Assembly: GCA_009797885.1 (NCBI GenBank)
Contig: WNKP01000005.1
Span: 1-64,000 of the forward strand
Direction of reading: 5' to 3'
Source: Flavobacteriaceae bacterium GF1
Lineage (GTDB): Bacteria; Bacteroidota; Bacteroidia; Flavobacteriales; Flavobacteriaceae
Length of the DNA: 64,000 nt
Shown here: in pieces, positions 1 to 37,228 of the stretch
Layout: each line of letters starts with the position of its first letter
Numbering within the stretch: position 1 is the first letter of the stretch
Translations under genes and position numbers: made by a program
The notes under the pieces: generated by a model
Databases searched by the model: none
Seen by the model: only the letters and a program-made list of their open reading frames with translations
What the model was told of the DNA's origin: nothing

Positions 1-1346
1 TTCAGCATTTCGGGCATTCCAGGGCCACCTTTGGGGCCTTCATACCGAATAACGACCACATCCCCTTTTTTCACCAAGCCATTCTTAATACCATCATTGG
101 CATCAAACTCACCGGCAAAAACTTTGGCCGGTCCGGAAAAATATAGGCCTTCCTTACCCGTAATTTTGGCTACTGCACCCTGTGCGGCGATATTTCCATA
201 AAGAATTCGGATATGTCCGGTTTCCTTGATGGGATCGTCCAAATCATGAACTATTTTTTGCCCATCCAATAAACTGGGGACCTCGGCCAGGTTTTCGGCC
301 ACTGTTTCACCGGTTACGGTAAGGCAATCCCCATGCAGCATTCCTTTTTCCAACATGAATTTCATAACGGCCGGAATTCCACCGACACGGTGGACATCTT
401 CCATCAAAAACTTACCGCTGGGCTTTAAATCGGCCAGGAATGGTGTAGTATCACTTATCCGTTGAAAATCACTTAGGTCAAATTGGATTTCAGCCGCCTT
501 GGCAATGGCCAAAAAGTGTAGGACCGCATTGGTGGATCCCCCGAGGACGGTAATCAATCGAACTGCATTTTCCAATGATTTTTTCGAAATGATATCGGAG
601 GGTTTGATATCCTTTTCCAAAAGATGGCGCAGCGCTTTTCCAGAAGCGATGCAATCTTCCCTTTTTTCCGTTCCCGTTGCAGGGTTTGAGGAATTGTAGG
701 GCATGGCCATTCCCAATGCTTCAATGGCGGAGGCCATGGTATTGGCCGTATACATTCCACCACAGGCTCCCGCGCCGGGACAAGCATTTTGTATCACCGC
801 CTTGTATTCCTCTTCATTCATGGTTCCCGCCACTTTTTCGCCCCAGGCTTCAAAAGCAGAGACCACATCGAGCTTTTTATTGTTCAAACACCCCGAGGCA
901 ATGGTTCCGCCATAGACCAGAACGGATGGTCTGTTCAATCGAATCATGGCCATTAGTGCTCCCGGCATATTCTTATCGCAACCCACTACCGTTACCAAGC
1001 CATCATAGTTCATGGCCTGTACCACGGTTTCCATGGAATCCGCAATAATATCCCTTGAAGGCAGGGAATACCGCATTCCATAGGTTCCCATGGAAATCCC
1101 GTCGCTAACACCAATGGTGTTAAAAATCAAGCCTACCAAATCCGTGGATTGAATCCCTTCCTTGACATATTCGGATAGCTCATTGAGATGCATATTACAA
1201 GGATTGCCCTCGTAACCCGTGCTTCCTATCCCTATTAAGGGCTTTTTTAAATCGGTTTCGGTTAAGCCAATGGCATGCAACATTGCCTGAGCGGCAGGTT
1301 GGGTGGGGTCTTGGGTAACGTTTTTGCTGTATTTGTTAAGTTCCAT
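1..1346 (-). CDS. ilvD: Dihydroxy-acid dehydratase (3' end outside window)
   Basis: This enzyme dehydrates 2,3-dihydroxy-3-methylvalerate and 2,3-dihydroxyisovalerate to 2-oxo acids in isoleucine/valine synthesis. About 448 residues are present of a family length near 560; the C-terminus is cut by the window edge. The ATG is at 1344-1346. The three iron-sulfur ligand cysteines are visible at C50 (GNPCNMHL), C123 (GCDKNMPG) and C195 ([11 protein letters not shown]). The spacing and motifs are those of the IlvD/Edd family, with the GNPCN segment favouring IlvD over Edd. In flavobacteria ilvD usually heads an ilv-leu operon, which would continue left of the window. Upstream lies a candidate attenuator with a branched-chain-rich leader peptide. 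Confidence 0.97.
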
Positions 1347-1533
1347 TAAAGATTTTCAGTATTCTCGTTAAAACAGTATATATTCTTCAACATCCAAAAA
1401 TATACTATAGAATTACCCTATTCTTTTGGCGAATGGCAACGATTTAAATCCATTTTATTTTGAATCTGTTCAAAATTCTGTTATTCAGCCACTTAAACAC
1501 CTTTTTCATACCATATCCAAAAATTAAAAAGTC

Positions 1534-1569
1534 GATAAAAAAAGCCTGTATCGTCTTGGATACAGGCTT
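1534..1569 (-). terminator. Attenuator terminator hairpin upstream of ilvD
   Basis: A perfect 11-bp stem (arms 1559-1569 and 1542-1552, AAGCCTGTATC paired with GATACAGGCTT) with a 6-base loop is followed on the minus strand by seven T residues. It lies about 190 bases before ilvD. The only leftward unit upstream of it, apart from convergent pxpC read-through, is the short leader ORF. An attenuator for ilvD is therefore the likeliest role; the alternative is a plain terminator for pxp read-through. Confidence 0.75.
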
Positions 1570-1571
1570 CT

Positions 1572-1636
1572 CTTGATTACGACATTAGCCAAATCAACTC
1601 CTCCCAGAATTGAATTTTAGAATGCGGTTAATCAAG
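1572..1636 (-). promoter_or_regulatory. Alternative pairing in the ilv leader
   Basis: CTTGATTA at the end of the leader ORF (plus-strand 1629-1636, minus sense) is the exact reverse complement of TAATCAAG (1572-1579, minus sense), which sits two bases before the terminator stem. With one mismatch the pairing extends by two more pairs (C-G, T-A). A ribosome at the leader stop codon would mask the first arm. A stalled or advancing ribosome could thus choose between structures, as in classical attenuators. The exact antiterminator pairing is not resolved by eye. Confidence 0.5.
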
Positions 1637-1696
1637 CGATATCTTTATACTCTTAAAGATAGTCAATTTAAAGACTACAACAAACTGCTTTACCAT
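1628..1696 (-). CDS. Putative ilv leader peptide (22 aa)
   Basis: A short ORF starts with ATG at 1694-1696 and ends with TAA at 1628-1630. It reads MVKQFVVVFKLTIF followed by KSIKISLD. Nine of 22 residues are Val, Ile or Leu, including a VVV run, exactly the amino acids whose pathway the next gene (ilvD) serves. The stop lies 58 bases before a hairpin with a U-tract. The last codons are perfectly complementary to an 8-base element just before that hairpin. This is the layout of a ribosome-dependent attenuator. I see no clear promoter upstream, and translation is inferred only. Confidence 0.6.
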   Translation of the reverse strand: MVKQFVVVFKLTIFKSIKISLD

Positions 1697-1704
1697 TATC
1701 TTTG
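1697..1704 (+). promoter_or_regulatory. TATCTTTG, match to the flavobacterial -7 element
   Basis: The octamer fits TAnnTTTG exactly but lies only three bases before the ATG of the nitroreductase gene, so transcription from it would be nearly leaderless. No TTG lies at the -33 spacing. It may be coincidence. Confidence 0.3.
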
Positions 1705-1707
1705 AAA

Positions 1708-2439
1708 ATGATGGAAAAAACCGTTACCGAGGCCATAGGCCACAGACGTTCTGTTCGAGTATTTAAAGAGGAGGAGGAACTGGACAGTAAAAAAGTTGAA
1801 CAATGCGTTAAAAATGCCGTTTTGGCGCCCACCAGCAGTAATCTCCAACTCTGGGAATTTTATCATATCACCGACAAAACCACCATGAATAAAATGACCA
1901 AGGCGTGTTTGGGCCAGAATGCCGCCAAAACGGCCAAGCAACTTATCGTTGTAGTGGTAAGAAAGGACCTCTGGAATAAACGTGCCCAGGCGAACATAGA
2001 CTTTCTGAAAAAATCCTATGGCCCTAAACCGGCTTCGGAATACACAAAGCGGGAAAAGTTTGCCCTTAGTTATTACCAAAAACTGATTCCTACCGTGTAT
2101 TTTGATTTTCTCGGTTTTTTGGGTTGGATCAAATATGCCGCTTTTCAGCTTATTGGACTCTTTAAGCCCATTTACCGGCAAGTACGTGCGTCCGATATGC
2201 GTATTGTTGCCCATAAAAGTGCCGGATTGGCCGCTCAAAACTTCATGATCAGTATGGCCGCCATTGGTTATGATACCTGTCCCATGGAAGGAAGTGATAC
2301 CCTAAGGATCAAAAAGATATTGGGTCTACCCTGGGGTGCTGAGATAAACATGGTCATTGGCTGTGGGGTAAGAGCGGAAAATGGGGTTTATGGCCCAAGG
2401 TTTAGGGTGCCTTTTGAATCGGTTTACCACAAAATCTAA
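1708..2439 (+). CDS. Nitroreductase family protein
   Basis: This is a probable FMN-dependent NAD(P)H oxidoreductase of the nitroreductase fold, cytosolic, substrate unknown. From the ATG at 1708 it is 243 residues; the second ATG at 1711 is equally possible, and an in-frame TTG at 1702 is less likely. Visible family signatures are the FMN-contacting RRSVR near residues 13-17, APTSSN near 42-47, and the C-terminal block from GLAAQNFM to CPMEG around 173-195. Between them sits an unusual hydrophobic insert (FDFLGFLGWIKY) that may form the dimer or substrate lid. The stop overlaps the convergent pxpC stop by four bases. Confidence 0.88.
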   Translation: MMEKTVTEAIGHRRSVRVFKEEEELDSKKVEQCVKNAVLAPTSSNLQLWEFYHITDKTTMNKMTKACLGQNAAKTAKQLIVVVVRKDLWNKRAQANIDFLKKSYGPKPASEYTKREKFALSYYQKLIPTVYFDFLGFLGWIKYAAFQLIGLFKPIYRQVRASDMRIVAHKSAGLAAQNFMISMAAIGYDTCPMEGSDTLRIKKILGLPWGAEINMVIGCGVRAENGVYGPRFRVPFESVYHKI

Positions 2440-3275
2440 CCGTAAATAAATCGAATGGTGTCCCCTGCTTTTTTTTGGGCCAGTATGGATATGCTTTCTT
2501 TTGTCAACTGTAATATTCTTGGATATCCACCTGTGGTTTGACCGTCTTTCATTAAAACGATGAGTTTTCCCGCAGGTGTCAACTGCACCGTCCCTGGTAG
2601 TGTTGCCGAAGTAAGCATCGTGATGGAATGTTCTCCAATTTTCTCCTCTAACTGATAGGCCATCCTATTATTTTCCTTGGAAACCGAAAACCTAAGATCA
2701 AACAATTGTTCCTGTTGTTTTTGGGTTAAAATTCCAAATTCCGGTCCTGGGTTTACCCTGAGTTCCTGGTTTTCCAAATAGTCCCCTACCTTTAAGTTGG
2801 TCAATTTAGGATCAAATGAGCGAATAGGATAGTATTCTATTTCATCACCTTCCTTTATGCATTGTTTGTTGGTCAAGGGAATGTATTGGGAGGTACTTCC
2901 CAATACATTTGCAAAAACAAATCCTTCCTTTATCCCCAAATAGCCTCGAAACCCTTTTTCCAGTCGGCCATAGGACAAAATATCCCCTTGGGCAACAGGA
3001 TACACCCGATAATTTTCAATAGGTTCATTGTTTAAGGTAGCAGAAAGTTCGGCACCTCCCAAACAGATGTAGGTCTGTTGCTCAAATAAGAGTGTGGGTC
3101 CCGTCATGGTAATTTCCAAAACCGTGGCATCGGAAGGATTTTCCAAAAGTGTATTGACCCGATGTCTTGCCATGTCATCCATGGTACCGGAAACCGGAAC
3201 GCCCTTATGCTTCCATGCAAATCTTCCCTTATCCTGAACAGTGGTGTAAAAACCGGATTTTAGAACCTTAAGCAT
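2436..3275 (-). CDS. pxpC: 5-oxoprolinase subunit C (biotin-dependent carboxyltransferase family)
   Basis: This is one of three subunits of the ATP-dependent bacterial 5-oxoprolinase, which opens 5-oxoproline (pyroglutamate) to glutamate. The 279-residue protein shows the KipA/PxpC opening GFYTTVQDKGRFAWKHKG then PVSGTMDD, and the late GGYPRILQL segment. The ATG at 3273-3275 lies inside the end of pxpB (8-base overlap), which suggests coupled translation. With pxpA and pxpB immediately upstream the assignment to the complex is strong. It is slightly shorter than many homologues but has no visible gap. Confidence 0.93.
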   Translation of the reverse strand: MLKVLKSGFYTTVQDKGRFAWKHKGVPVSGTMDDMARHRVNTLLENPSDATVLEITMTGPTLLFEQQTYICLGGAELSATLNNEPIENYRVYPVAQGDILSYGRLEKGFRGYLGIKEGFVFANVLGSTSQYIPLTNKQCIKEGDEIEYYPIRSFDPKLTNLKVGDYLENQELRVNPGPEFGILTQKQQEQLFDLRFSVSKENNRMAYQLEEKIGEHSITMLTSATLPGTVQLTPAGKLIVLMKDGQTTGGYPRILQLTKESISILAQKKAGDTIRFIYG

Positions 3276-3999
3276 CCAAGACTATTTTTTCAGGTTGATA
3301 AATTCCAACTTCGGCCTCTATTATTTTTAAATCGAAGGTCGCACGTTCAATGGGAACGAACTGAATCTGATCACCAACATTGATAAAACAGGGCTCCTTA
3401 CGATTTAAATTGAACATGGGCACCGGACACCTTCCAATAATGTTCCATCCCCCTGGGGAGTCTTGAGGGTAAATTCCTGTCTGTTTTCCTGCCAGTCCCA
3501 CCGAACCTTTTGCGACATGAAGCCTAGGGCTTGCCCTTCTTTTCGTCTCTAGATTCTTTGGCAATCCGCCCAAATACATAAACCCTGGAAGAAAGCCAAT
3601 ACTATACACCGTATACCTATGTGAGGTGTGGCGTTGTACTAACTCTTCTACCGAAATAACCAACTTCTGCGCGGTGGTTTCCAAATCAAGTCCAAAATCC
3701 AGGTCATAGCAGACCGGAAGTTTCCACAGGTTTCGTTTCAGGGAGAATTCAGCACGGGGAGCAGCGTACCATTCCAGAAGTTTGTCCTTAAAACCGGTAA
3801 ATTCGAAATCGGAATTTTGACAGATTAAAGTCAACGAATTGTAAGACGGAACCATAACCCATTTTGCTTCCAAGACGGTTTTTAAGAATTCTTGAAAACC
3901 AATGATATCGTTAAGGATGGCTTCATCTACTTTTTGCGGCCATTCCATTAAAATTGCGGTATCACCGAAAGGTTTTACGGTAATGGGGAACAAACTCAC
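3268..3999 (-). CDS. pxpB: 5-oxoprolinase subunit B
   Basis: This is the KipI-like subunit of 5-oxoprolinase, 243 residues. The hallmark run around the YSIGFLPGFMYLGGLP motif is followed by RASPRLHV and GSVGLAG then QTGIYPQDSPGGWNIIGR, a segment nearly invariant in the PxpB/KipI family. The start is GTG at 3997-3999, forming a GTGA four-base overlap with the pxpA stop; no nearer ATG exists, and the overlap decides the start. Partner and order match the Bacillus ycsF-kipI-kipA type cluster. Confidence 0.94.
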   Translation of the reverse strand: MSLFPITVKPFGDTAILMEWPQKVDEAILNDIIGFQEFLKTVLEAKWVMVPSYNSLTLICQNSDFEFTGFKDKLLEWYAAPRAEFSLKRNLWKLPVCYDLDFGLDLETTAQKLVISVEELVQRHTSHRYTVYSIGFLPGFMYLGGLPKNLETKRRASPRLHVAKGSVGLAGKQTGIYPQDSPGGWNIIGRCPVPMFNLNRKEPCFINVGDQIQFVPIERATFDLKIIEAEVGIYQPEKIVLDA

Positions 4000-4730
4000 T
4001 TTCTAATTTGGATGTTATGATTTGGCAATTCCCTATGAAGATACGTTAATATTTCCAATGCACGGGGGGTATCTCCATGTATACAAAAAGTATCTGCTTT
4101 TATTTCAATTTCCATTCCTTGTACGGACCATATTTTCTTTTCATGAACCATTTTCAATAAATGTTGGAGTACCTCTTCCGGGGCTTGGATCAAAGCATTC
4201 CCTTCCTTTCTGGAAACCAAGCTGTAATCGGCATTGTAATTCCGGTCCGCAAAGGCCTCCAATTTTATCGGAATTCCCTTTTTTTTGGCTTCCTCCTCAA
4301 TTTTGGAGCAAAATGGCACGTAAATAGGAATATCACTAAACGCTTTCACTGCCTCCAAAAAAACCATGGCCAAATCGGTATCTATTGCTATTTCGTTATA
4401 AAGTGCACCATGTGGTTTAATATGGTGCAACTCCCCTCCCTCTTCCTTCAAAACCTTCAAAAATAGCGCCAATTGTGCTTGAATACTTGCGATAAGATCG
4501 TTTGTGGAAATGTCCATTACCTTTCTTCCAAAATTCTCTTTGTCGGGATAACCGGGATGGGCCCCCAGCTTTACATTATACTGTCGGGCAACACGAATAG
4601 TGGTCCCCATAGTGCGTTCATCCCCTGCATGTCCACCACAGGCAATATTACATGAACTAAGGAACGGCATTAACTGGGCTTCATTGCCAATACCCTCTCC
4701 CACATCGCTATTTAAGTCAATCCATTTCAT
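3996..4730 (-). CDS. pxpA: 5-oxoprolinase subunit A (LamB/YcsF family)
   Basis: This is the third 5-oxoprolinase subunit, 244 residues. The N-terminus MKWIDLNSDVGEG and the following NIACGGHAGD are the diagnostic YcsF/LamB motifs; HPGYPD and KPHGALYN follow. I place the start at the ATG 4728-4730, one base after the stop of the transporter gene, because the only upstream alternative is a TTG at 4745 and the family normally begins right before IDLN. It lies in a leftward operon with the NRAMP gene upstream and pxpB/pxpC downstream. Confidence 0.95.
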   Translation of the reverse strand: MKWIDLNSDVGEGIGNEAQLMPFLSSCNIACGGHAGDERTMGTTIRVARQYNVKLGAHPGYPDKENFGRKVMDISTNDLIASIQAQLALFLKVLKEEGGELHHIKPHGALYNEIAIDTDLAMVFLEAVKAFSDIPIYVPFCSKIEEEAKKKGIPIKLEAFADRNYNADYSLVSRKEGNALIQAPEEVLQHLLKMVHEKKIWSVQGMEIEIKADTFCIHGDTPRALEILTYLHRELPNHNIQIRK

Positions 4731-4731
4731 T

Positions 4732-5922
4732 TTAGAACAATCCAAAAACCTTAACTATACTTTTTAGTCCCAAAACCAAACATACACCAATTATGAGAAT
4801 GCCATAAATATTTTGTGGCATGTTATTTTTATACGACCCCATTACCTGCCCCTTATTGACTATCCAAACCAACAAAATGGCTATAACGGGTAGAAGTACC
4901 CCATTCGCGACCTGTGCAAACGTAATGACTTCAATGGGTTTAAAGTTATAGAGCAAGGTAGCCACCCCTACCAATAAGACCGTTATCCAGACCATTCTAA
5001 ACTTCGTATCCTTTAAACCGGCCTTCCAATCAAAGCAACTATTGGCCACATAAGCTGCTGCCAATGGTGCGGTAATGGATGAGGTAATACCAGCAGCAAA
5101 AAGGCCAATTCCCATAAAATAACGTGCCATATTCCCAAAGAGCGGTTCGAGTCCTTTGGCCAAATCCGTAGCCATTGTAACTTCTTGAAGGGGAATTGCT
5201 GCCGCGGACACGATAATGGACATCGAAACCAATCCCCCCAGTCCAATGGAAATTACGGTATCTGACCGTGCCATTTTTACATCGGACTGTTTTTTCCACT
5301 TTTCGTTGACCAACGAAGCATGTAGAAAGAGGTTGTAAGGTACAATTGTAGTTCCTATTAGGGCTATAATGGTCAGTAATCCATCTTTGGGAATTGAGGG
5401 AACAAAAAGGCCTTTGGCCAGTTCCAATACATTTGGTTTTGTCAGAACAGCCGTTATCAAAAAGGACAGGCTCATCAATGCGATCAGGAATATAAAGACC
5501 TTTTCGAGCATTTTATAGTTTCCCAGCCATAATAGGAGAAAGGCTATCCCACCAATGATGAGTGCAAAATAGGAGTTGTTTCCTTTGTCAAAAATAGCTT
5601 CGAGACCAAGAACGGCACCTCCTATATTTCCGGCTTCATAAGCCGCATTACCTATTAAAATAGCCATCAAAATAATGCCGATGACGGCAACACGGATCCA
5701 TTTTATTTGCAGTTGATCACGTATCGCATCGGCCAACCCCTTTTTTGTTACAATGCCCAATCTAGCTGCCATTTCCTGTAGGACAATCGTTGCCAGAACG
5801 GAAAACAACATGGCCCATAACAGGGCATAACCAAAGGAAACCCCGGCCAAAGTGCAGGCTGTAATGGTGCCTGGTCCTATAAATGCAGCGGCGATTAAAA
5901 CCCCAGGTCCTATTCTTTTCAA
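4732..5922 (-). CDS. NRAMP-family divalent metal/cation transporter
   Basis: This is an inner-membrane transporter of the NRAMP (Nramp/MntH) fold, 396 residues with about 11 hydrophobic segments. The TM1 signature appears as GPGTITACTLAG; the usual Mn/Fe motif DPGN is replaced by GPGT, and TM6 lacks a clear MPH (it reads SAAAIPLQE). Both metal-site motifs are thus altered. Bacillus ycsG, linked to the 5-oxoprolinase genes, is also of this family, so the substrate may be an organic or non-canonical cation linked to oxoproline use (inference). The only start before the in-frame stop is TTG at 5920-5922. A run of nine A residues (minus sense) just upstream could hide a frameshifted start. Confidence 0.85.
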   Translation of the reverse strand: MKRIGPGVLIAAAFIGPGTITACTLAGVSFGYALLWAMLFSVLATIVLQEMAARLGIVTKKGLADAIRDQLQIKWIRVAVIGIILMAILIGNAAYEAGNIGGAVLGLEAIFDKGNNSYFALIIGGIAFLLLWLGNYKMLEKVFIFLIALMSLSFLITAVLTKPNVLELAKGLFVPSIPKDGLLTIIALIGTTIVPYNLFLHASLVNEKWKKQSDVKMARSDTVISIGLGGLVSMSIIVSAAAIPLQEVTMATDLAKGLEPLFGNMARYFMGIGLFAAGITSSITAPLAAAYVANSCFDWKAGLKDTKFRMVWITVLLVGVATLLYNFKPIEVITFAQVANGVLLPVIAILLVWIVNKGQVMGSYKNNMPQNIYGILIIGVCLVLGLKSIVKVFGLF

Positions 5923-37143: not shown

Positions 37144-37228
37144 GGAGGAATGGCAGAGTGGTCGAATGCGGCAGTCTTGAAAACTGTTGAGGGTCACACC
37201 TCCGGGGGTTCGAATCCCTCTTCCTCCG
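37144..37228 (+). tRNA. tRNA-Ser (anticodon UGA)
   Basis: An 85-base cloverleaf is readable: acceptor GGAGGAA paired with TTCCTCC (37221-37227), anticodon stem GCAGT/ACTGT around the loop CTTGAAA giving anticodon TGA, a long class II variable arm (GAGG...CCTC), and T-arm GGGGG-TTCGAAT-CCCTC. CCA is not encoded. Partial copies of its 3' end occur at 37525-37543 and 61320-61333, so it probably served as an integration site. Confidence 0.97.

Follow-up and report, generated by a model that had tools for sequence, protein, structure and literature searches.

Flavobacteriaceae ilv attenuators and a probable degenerate copy upstream of ilvD

The ilv operons of enterobacteria (ilvGMEDA, ilvBN) are controlled by leader-peptide attenuators, and Bacteroidetes/Chlorobi are reportedly among the groups in which Vitreschak and colleagues, in a comparative study of 2004, predicted attenuators. 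Closer to the present case, in Flavobacterium psychrophilum, of the same bacterial family, the upstream regions of amino-acid biosynthesis operons are reported to bear strong signs of leader peptide attenuation (PMC9723704); in the available main text of that paper "ilv" occurs 0 times. The ilvBNC attenuator of C. glutamicum (PMC11857589), going by its description, is alike in having a branched-chain operon and a three-hairpin leader, but it belongs to an unrelated phylum. In Bacteroides there are short ORFs reminiscent of leader peptides, with no ilv case in the accessible text (PMC7366714), and the accessible part of PMC2864571 has nothing on ilv attenuation in flavobacteria. A literature search found no report of an ilv attenuator in flavobacteria.

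What follows concerns a known kind of switch, an ilv attenuator family that is common in the sample of Flavobacteriaceae compared here and degenerate in the window, by which I mean the whole 64,000-nucleotide stretch of DNA analysed, from Flavobacteriaceae bacterium GF1 (contig WNKP01000005.1). The features under discussion are these:

1..1346, minus strand: ilvD (dihydroxy-acid dehydratase), truncated by the contig start; start at 1346
1395..1402, minus strand: proximal -7 box of ilvD, TATTTTTG; predicted transcription start at about 1390
1509..1519, minus strand: TGGATATGGTA, the outer end of a conserved module that lies before the proximal -7 box, at a distance of 116-117 bp from that box
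1535..1569, minus strand: intrinsic terminator formed by segments 3 and 4 (3:4), with a stem of 11 bp (1569-1542) and a U-run reaching 1535
1572..1593, minus strand: segment 2, the 3' side of the 1:2 hairpin (TAATCAAG at 1579-1572) with a remnant of the antiterminator strand, from alignment to relatives and folding
1594..1635, minus strand: frame TTG-ATT-AAC-CGC-ATT-CTA-AAA-TTC-AAT-TCT-GGG-AGG-AGT-TGA (LINRILKFNSGRS), at the position of the relatives' leader peptide
1628..1696, minus strand: ORF taken for the leader by an earlier sequence-only reading, judged here not to be the leader; its VVV is lost in the siblings
1646..1650, minus strand: position of the relatives' leader ATG, occupied by ATA (1648-1646) going by the spacing from the -7 box or GTA (1650-1648) going by alignment
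1654..1661, minus strand: distal promoter -7 box, TATCTTTA, aligning with the relatives' boxes; predicted start at about 1649
1681..1684, minus strand: TTTG, a candidate for the -33 element in the distal promoter, with a 19-nt spacer to the -7 box
1697..1704, plus strand: TATCTTTG, the -7 box of a divergently transcribed nitroreductase gene with its ATG at 1708 or 1711

The top NCBIfam matches of the gene starting at 1346 are PRK00911 and ilvD, slightly below their cut-offs, as expected of a gene truncated at the contig start. In G004, which with G006 is one of the two siblings used below (with the window they make up a clade of three species), a full ilvD is followed by genes with matches to the large subunit of acetolactate synthase (a TPP enzyme), to a methyltransferase, to the small subunit of acetolactate synthase and to ketol-acid reductoisomerase. 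The divergent gene, 1711-2436, has a Pfam Nitroreductase match. Its -7 box (1697-1704, plus strand) ends 3 nt before the ATG at 1708, or 6 nt before the one at 1711, so this mRNA may also be leaderless. On the minus strand of 2436-5922 lie four ORFs that, by eye, I take to be a 5-oxoprolinase PxpCBA set and an NRAMP-type transporter. An Rfam scan of the whole window at the gathering score gave only a tRNA at 37144-37228, and a riboswitch, T-box or other known Rfam family as the ilvD leader was set aside, there being no match at that score.

The hairpin that the sequence-only reading described upstream of ilvD is there: 11 perfect pairs, AAGCCTGTATC-CAAGAC-GATACAGGCTT (1569-1542, minus strand), and a U-run of seven T, two of them inside the stem, ending at about 1535, some 190 bases upstream of the ilvD start. 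So is the 8-base complement that it reported, CTTGATTA (1636-1629) pairing with TAATCAAG (1579-1572) on the minus strand, and in folding the window and both siblings have a 1:2 hairpin in the form of a long hairpin spanning 1636-1572. The 181-nt region 1700-1520 folds better than 200 of 200 dinucleotide shuffles (z -4.3). A simple terminator scan reported the ilvD-upstream hairpin on the plus strand only, leaving the minus-strand tail unflagged, and by the same scan terminator-like sites are no commoner than in shuffles.

The relatives tell what such a hairpin may belong to. They comprise 98 ilvD upstream regions, 11 from the genus and 87 from a family sample; ilvD was found in 313 of 397 family genomes and the best-scoring part of them was used, so the sample leans to close relatives. 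Outside the window clade, 29 loci have a Val/Ile-rich leader frame with a U-tailed terminator behind it, for a total of 30 elements (L109 has two). The peptides, for example MRNGKLISDVVIIVPFRE, MKFLQNIVILVIIVPLGG, MKLNVNLINVVIIVP and MKKQLINIISIIVIVIISQL, are of the VVIIVP or IISIIVVIIS type and stand before ilvD, ilvE-ilvD or ilvB, some of the elements being in tandem. Behind them come a 1:2 hairpin, a 2:3 antiterminator and a 3:4 terminator with its U tail. As in the enterobacterial ilv attenuators, then, there is a regulatory codon run, there are 1:2, 2:3 and 3:4 segments and a U-tailed terminator, and branched-chain genes lie downstream. The sequence-only reading had suggested aligning the ilvD upstream regions of related flavobacteria, and in the family such an alignment does bring out conserved Val/Ile-rich leader ORFs and covarying hairpins.

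The 30 leaders were picked by eye, as terminators behind a V/I/L-rich frame, and terminators lacking one (L077 and L102, for example) were left out. Having been picked partly for richness, they have I, V or L at 260 of 535 positions in frame, compared with 162 of 535 and 56 of 535 in the other frames. Two stem classes occur among the elements, CCTGTATC (class A, n=17) and CCTTCC (class B, n=13), and segments 2 and 3 match within a class: the 2-3 duplex of class A averages -8.9 kcal/mol with its own class and -5.1 with the other, that of class B -9.2 and -7.3 kcal/mol. In class A, 9 of the 23 pairs of the 1:2 and 3:4 helices show two-sided changes, a figure as high in 0 of 500 shuffles; for the 2:3 helix, 97.5% of cells are paired, with changes confined to one side of its pairs.

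Folding predicts how the intact members would work. RNA polymerase would start just upstream of or at the leader ATG, and a ribosome would translate the peptide with its run of Val and Ile codons. When Val- or Ile-tRNA is short, the ribosome would stall on segment 1, segments 2 and 3 would pair (GATACAG with CTGTATC), and no terminator would form. A ribosome that reached the stop codon would let segments 3 and 4 pair, ending transcription. When a ribosome is simulated by masking, upstream pairing of segment 3 exceeds 0.5 in all 30 elements when the ribosome is stalled; placing it at the stop codon lowers this to 3 of 30, and leaving it out gives 11 of 30. Among the 17 class A elements the median 2:3 pairing is 0.02 with no ribosome, 0.85-0.87 with one at -66 to -42, and 0.03 with one at -36, near the stop. 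With no ribosome the value for class B is 0.78, so class B would need translation for termination. Once the transcript is complete, the terminator wins in nearly all cases under any ribosome mask, which means that the folding model, like other attenuators, works only by timing.

Model R1, built from the 17 class A elements with the window excluded, was run on 80 titled ilvD loci, several of them from training genomes. It gave 46 forward matches in 42 loci (37 of 83 matches were on the reverse strand and were dropped). One of the 46 is in the window clade (L175); the remaining 45 all have an I/V-rich leader ORF, L215 177-272 included. Among 20 loci with weaker or tandem R1 matches, the gene downstream is an ilv gene in 15 (some of them named by eye), hisG in one and an unrelated gene in four. 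In the hisG case, L166, the match is a terminator 20 nt before the gene with the short frame MKITNNIHRHLNFLKRVL, and may be a his attenuator of related type. Tandem attenuators, in which one leader peptide follows another ahead of ilv genes, occur at L109, L155, L156, L157, L158, L159, L215, L239 and L240; the copies are near-identical duplicates in L155-L157 and of different stem classes in L109 and L158. An element also precedes ilvD at 1310-1445 of L251, with the leader MKPFITIIIIIVVVIII, and since that record is titled Saprospiraceae bacterium, the family may extend beyond Flavobacteriaceae, if the title is right.

There is a departure from enterobacteria in where the leaders begin. In 14 of 29 leaders (L091 left out; background 0.045 per 13 positions) no more than 3-6 nt separate the start codon from a -7 box before it; in four more the gap is 8-10 nt, and in 11 no box was recognised. 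In F. psychrophilum the -7 box spans -12 to -5 (PMC9723704), so many of these leaders should lie on leaderless or near-leaderless RNA. Another observation concerns their codons: Val is mostly GTC, 36 of 71 in the 30 leaders against 255 of 2502 in ilvD of 79 titled loci, a preference that could reflect a rare control codon or a constraint of pairing.

Is the window's element one of this family? It consists of a U-tailed terminator with the family stem CCTGTATC/GATACAGG, upstream of an ilv gene. The pattern CCTGTATC-N3-14-GATACAGG occurs at a single place in the 5.28-Mb genome; a search for a second copy there found none, and sibling G004 has one further stem place. In exact form the stem is present in 3 of the 11 genus genomes. 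Across 149 family genomes the pattern has 25 places, at least 20 of which, the window's included, fall within the R1 matches listed; the five outside those listed are in G012, G084, G098, G103 and G137. Position agrees as well. L018, whose leader is intact and which shares the upstream nitroreductase start, has an intergenic region of 366 bases to the window's 364, and a terminator at -221 to the window's -220. The R1 score of the window, 49.5 bits, is the top match in its own genome but is not decisive, because unrelated terminators also score near 50 bits (L163 48.7, L164 52.0). I claim no sequence homology for the leader itself, because the window's element had no significant match to a family profile built from the 5' part alone, terminator excluded; pairwise, that part has z of -0.5 to 2.6 against seven relatives (2.3 against L018). 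The kinship thus rests on the stem, its uniqueness in the genome and its position, and by these marks the window hairpin is a copy of the family terminator.

What the window seems to lack is the sensor. Where the relatives have their leader ATG, the ATA frame meets a stop after six codons, the GTA frame after a single one, and downstream of the distal promoter the window has no ATG or GTG leader with a Val/Ile run over segment 1. The TTG frame has I or L at 3 of the 12 codons after its start. Segment 2 reads GATTTGG where relatives have GATACAG or similar. By eye this keeps 6 of 7 aligned pairs, with a 2:3 duplex z of +0.10; GACTTGC of the siblings keeps 4 of 7, with z of +1.6 and +1.5. The antiterminator would thus be weakened in the window and for the most part broken in the siblings. 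In the relatives, by the same mononucleotide shuffles of segment 2, the median is -1.97 and 29 of 30 values are negative (L109b being the exception), as are 38 of 39 in the titled set (exception L241), where L175 of the window clade has +1.25. Oddly, segment 2 of the window forms a more stable duplex with 5' arms of class B (-10.5 kcal/mol) than with those of class A (-6.5). The siblings G006 and G004 share the losses. These features are lost or weakened in the DNA; that sensing went with them I infer, and the clade seems to keep the attenuator's stop signal before ilvD with the sensing part lost.

It would be natural to suppose that a switch that has lost its sensor is simply decaying. The element, though, is not drifting freely: over 1653-1535 the window differs from each sibling by 5 of 119 bases, whereas four-fold sites of ilvD differ by 22.9% (G006) and 19.2% (G004). 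The terminator, 1569-1535, shows 0 of 35 differences. Simple neutral decay fails to explain so low a divergence; a role as terminator, insulator, small RNA or residual sensor would. The constraint is not specific to the leader and may be regional, because the spacer downstream of the element is equally constrained (2 of 95 differences).

That spacer leads to a second, predicted promoter. The proximal box lies at -56 of ilvD, downstream of the terminator, and TAnnTTTG is found between -75 and -25 of the ilvD ATG at 66 of 98 loci. Loci with an attenuator have it in 19 of 32 cases (the window clade included), unlike the enterobacterial operons, and those without one in 47 of 66. A proximal box after the terminator is therefore no bar to membership in the family. 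The eight genus members without the attenuator all have the box at -56 to -58, and in the 520 bases next to ilvD none of them showed a terminator. Upstream of the box the sequence TGRATATGRTA starts 116-117 bp away in 71 of 72 distances (103 distinct box-bearing loci). The module so delimited, 1519-1395 on the minus strand, has a consensus with the dyad-like CTGATAATCAG flanked by TTTAA-type stretches, and looks like operator DNA for some regulator. The pattern ATATGRTA-N103-108-TANNTTTG has 24 places in the 11 genus genomes, six of them upstream of ilvD (G000, G002, G003, G004, G006, G009). The remaining 18, several of which look mutually orthologous, compare with 16 for a reversed-pattern control, and I claim no regulon for the module.

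In the window, ilvD is most likely transcribed mainly from the proximal promoter at about 1390. The sequence-only reading had held that an ilvD transcription start downstream of 1534 would speak against attenuation. The predicted start does lie there. The class of switch that the reading named exists at this place in the family, and the window carries a copy of its terminator. It had the class right and the leader wrong.

The leader that it chose, MVKQFVVVFKLTIFKSIKISLD on 1696-1628 of the minus strand, does have 22 codons, 9 of them V, I or L, with VVV at 1681-1673. By itself such an ORF is weak evidence, because ATG ORFs are frequent in dinucleotide shuffles: among 1000 shuffles of 1710-1347, 891 had one of 12-40 codons and 175 one with at least 9/22 V/I/L, although only two of these also had VVV. 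In both siblings VVV is AMG, while the rest of the region changes little. Bases 1680-1672 are changed at 7 of 9 positions in G006 and 6 of 9 in G004 (against the 5 of 119 downstream), and the VVV codons take 6 of the 7 differences from G006 within 1683-1654 and 5 of the 6 from G004. They are the most variable stretch, and they sit inside the spacer of the leader's own promoter, between TTTG (1684-1681, its last base overlapped) and TATCTTTA (1661-1654), two elements whose spacing is that of a Bacteroidetes-type promoter. TTTG is kept in both siblings though this spacer differs at 7 of 19 positions in G006 and 6 of 19 in G004. The ORF begins upstream of that promoter, TTTG-N19-TATCTTTA, and overlaps it. 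In the folding model, moreover, upstream pairing of the terminator's 5' arm is 0.17 with a ribosome at VVV and 0.69 with one at the stop codon, so that stalling for valine would act as the reverse of an attenuator. On these grounds, variability, overlap with the promoter and a switch that runs the wrong way, I reject the ORF as leader; that its VVV senses valine is scarcely credible.

I propose that what stands before ilvD is a diverged member of the Flavobacteriaceae family of ilv leader-peptide attenuators. Its sensor would be lost or weakened, and it would yield a constitutive RNA of about 115 nt while ilvD is driven mainly by the proximal promoter. I consider this probable. In the window clade promoter, 1:2 hairpin and terminator are kept, and start codon, Val/Ile run and 2:3 pairing are lost or weakened. 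In that state, the distal transcript begun at about 1649 would end at about 1535 whatever the supply of amino acids, and ilvD would be expressed mainly from about 1390. Both starts and the termination I infer. An ordinary terminator, unconnected to amino-acid control, would fit the want of a demonstrable working sensor and of a sequence match to the family in the leader part, but the stem is the one found in the ilv attenuators, it occurs only once in the genome, and it stands where the family has it; this reading is very improbable. It is less far-fetched, if still unlikely, that the attenuator works, with LINRILKFNSGRS read from TTG 1635 as leader, stalling at Ile codons 2 and 5 (and at codon 6, Leu in the window and Ile in the siblings) and a weakened antiterminator. 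The frame has the same place and codon count to the stop as L018 has from its CTG-ATT on, its sole change in the siblings is CTA to ATA, Leu to Ile, and a ribosome at -60 in the folding scan brings 2:3 pairing to 0.54 in the window. Against this, pairing in the siblings reaches at most 0.33, and the frame hardly switches (0.56 stalled, 0.50 at the stop). It also starts with TTG, no ATG lying between the predicted start and that codon, and its three I/L among 12 compare with 5-12 I/V/L in the 30 relatives.

Transcript, terminator and distal promoter boxes are all strongly constrained although the sensor seems lost, and this raises another idea: the terminated 115-nt RNA may have acquired a new task, either as a small RNA acting in trans or by insulating the proximal promoter from upstream transcription. 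The folds of window and siblings, which both close into the 1:2 hairpin plus terminator, are in keeping with it. The other 8 of the 11 genus genomes, though, have no stem (exact pattern), no strong DNA match and no terminator within the 520 bases, so the task would not be essential to the genus, and I rate a new task of this kind as improbable. A broader version, which I offer only tentatively, is that selection has maintained, in one Croceivirga-type clade, an attenuator that no longer has its leader peptide or its switch. Its transcript would always terminate, at about 115 nt, and control of ilvD would have passed to the proximal promoter and its rigid 117-bp module. This would be a cis attenuator turning into a small RNA or insulator.

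To return to the diverged attenuator that I favor: with leader and switch degenerate, unlike those of the enterobacterial operons, the window is not the place to look for a working switch. Flavobacteriaceae are described, in the accessible text of PMC9723704, as lacking Shine-Dalgarno sequences, and the comparison suggests that ribosome-dependent ilv attenuation is widespread and anatomically clear in them; their leader peptides seem to begin at the 5' end of the RNA or beside it. Within one genus the switch would have been lost or bypassed, given a degenerate copy in three of 11 genomes and none found in eight. A comparison across that genus makes a possible takeover by the proximal promoter, and its regulator, directly testable.
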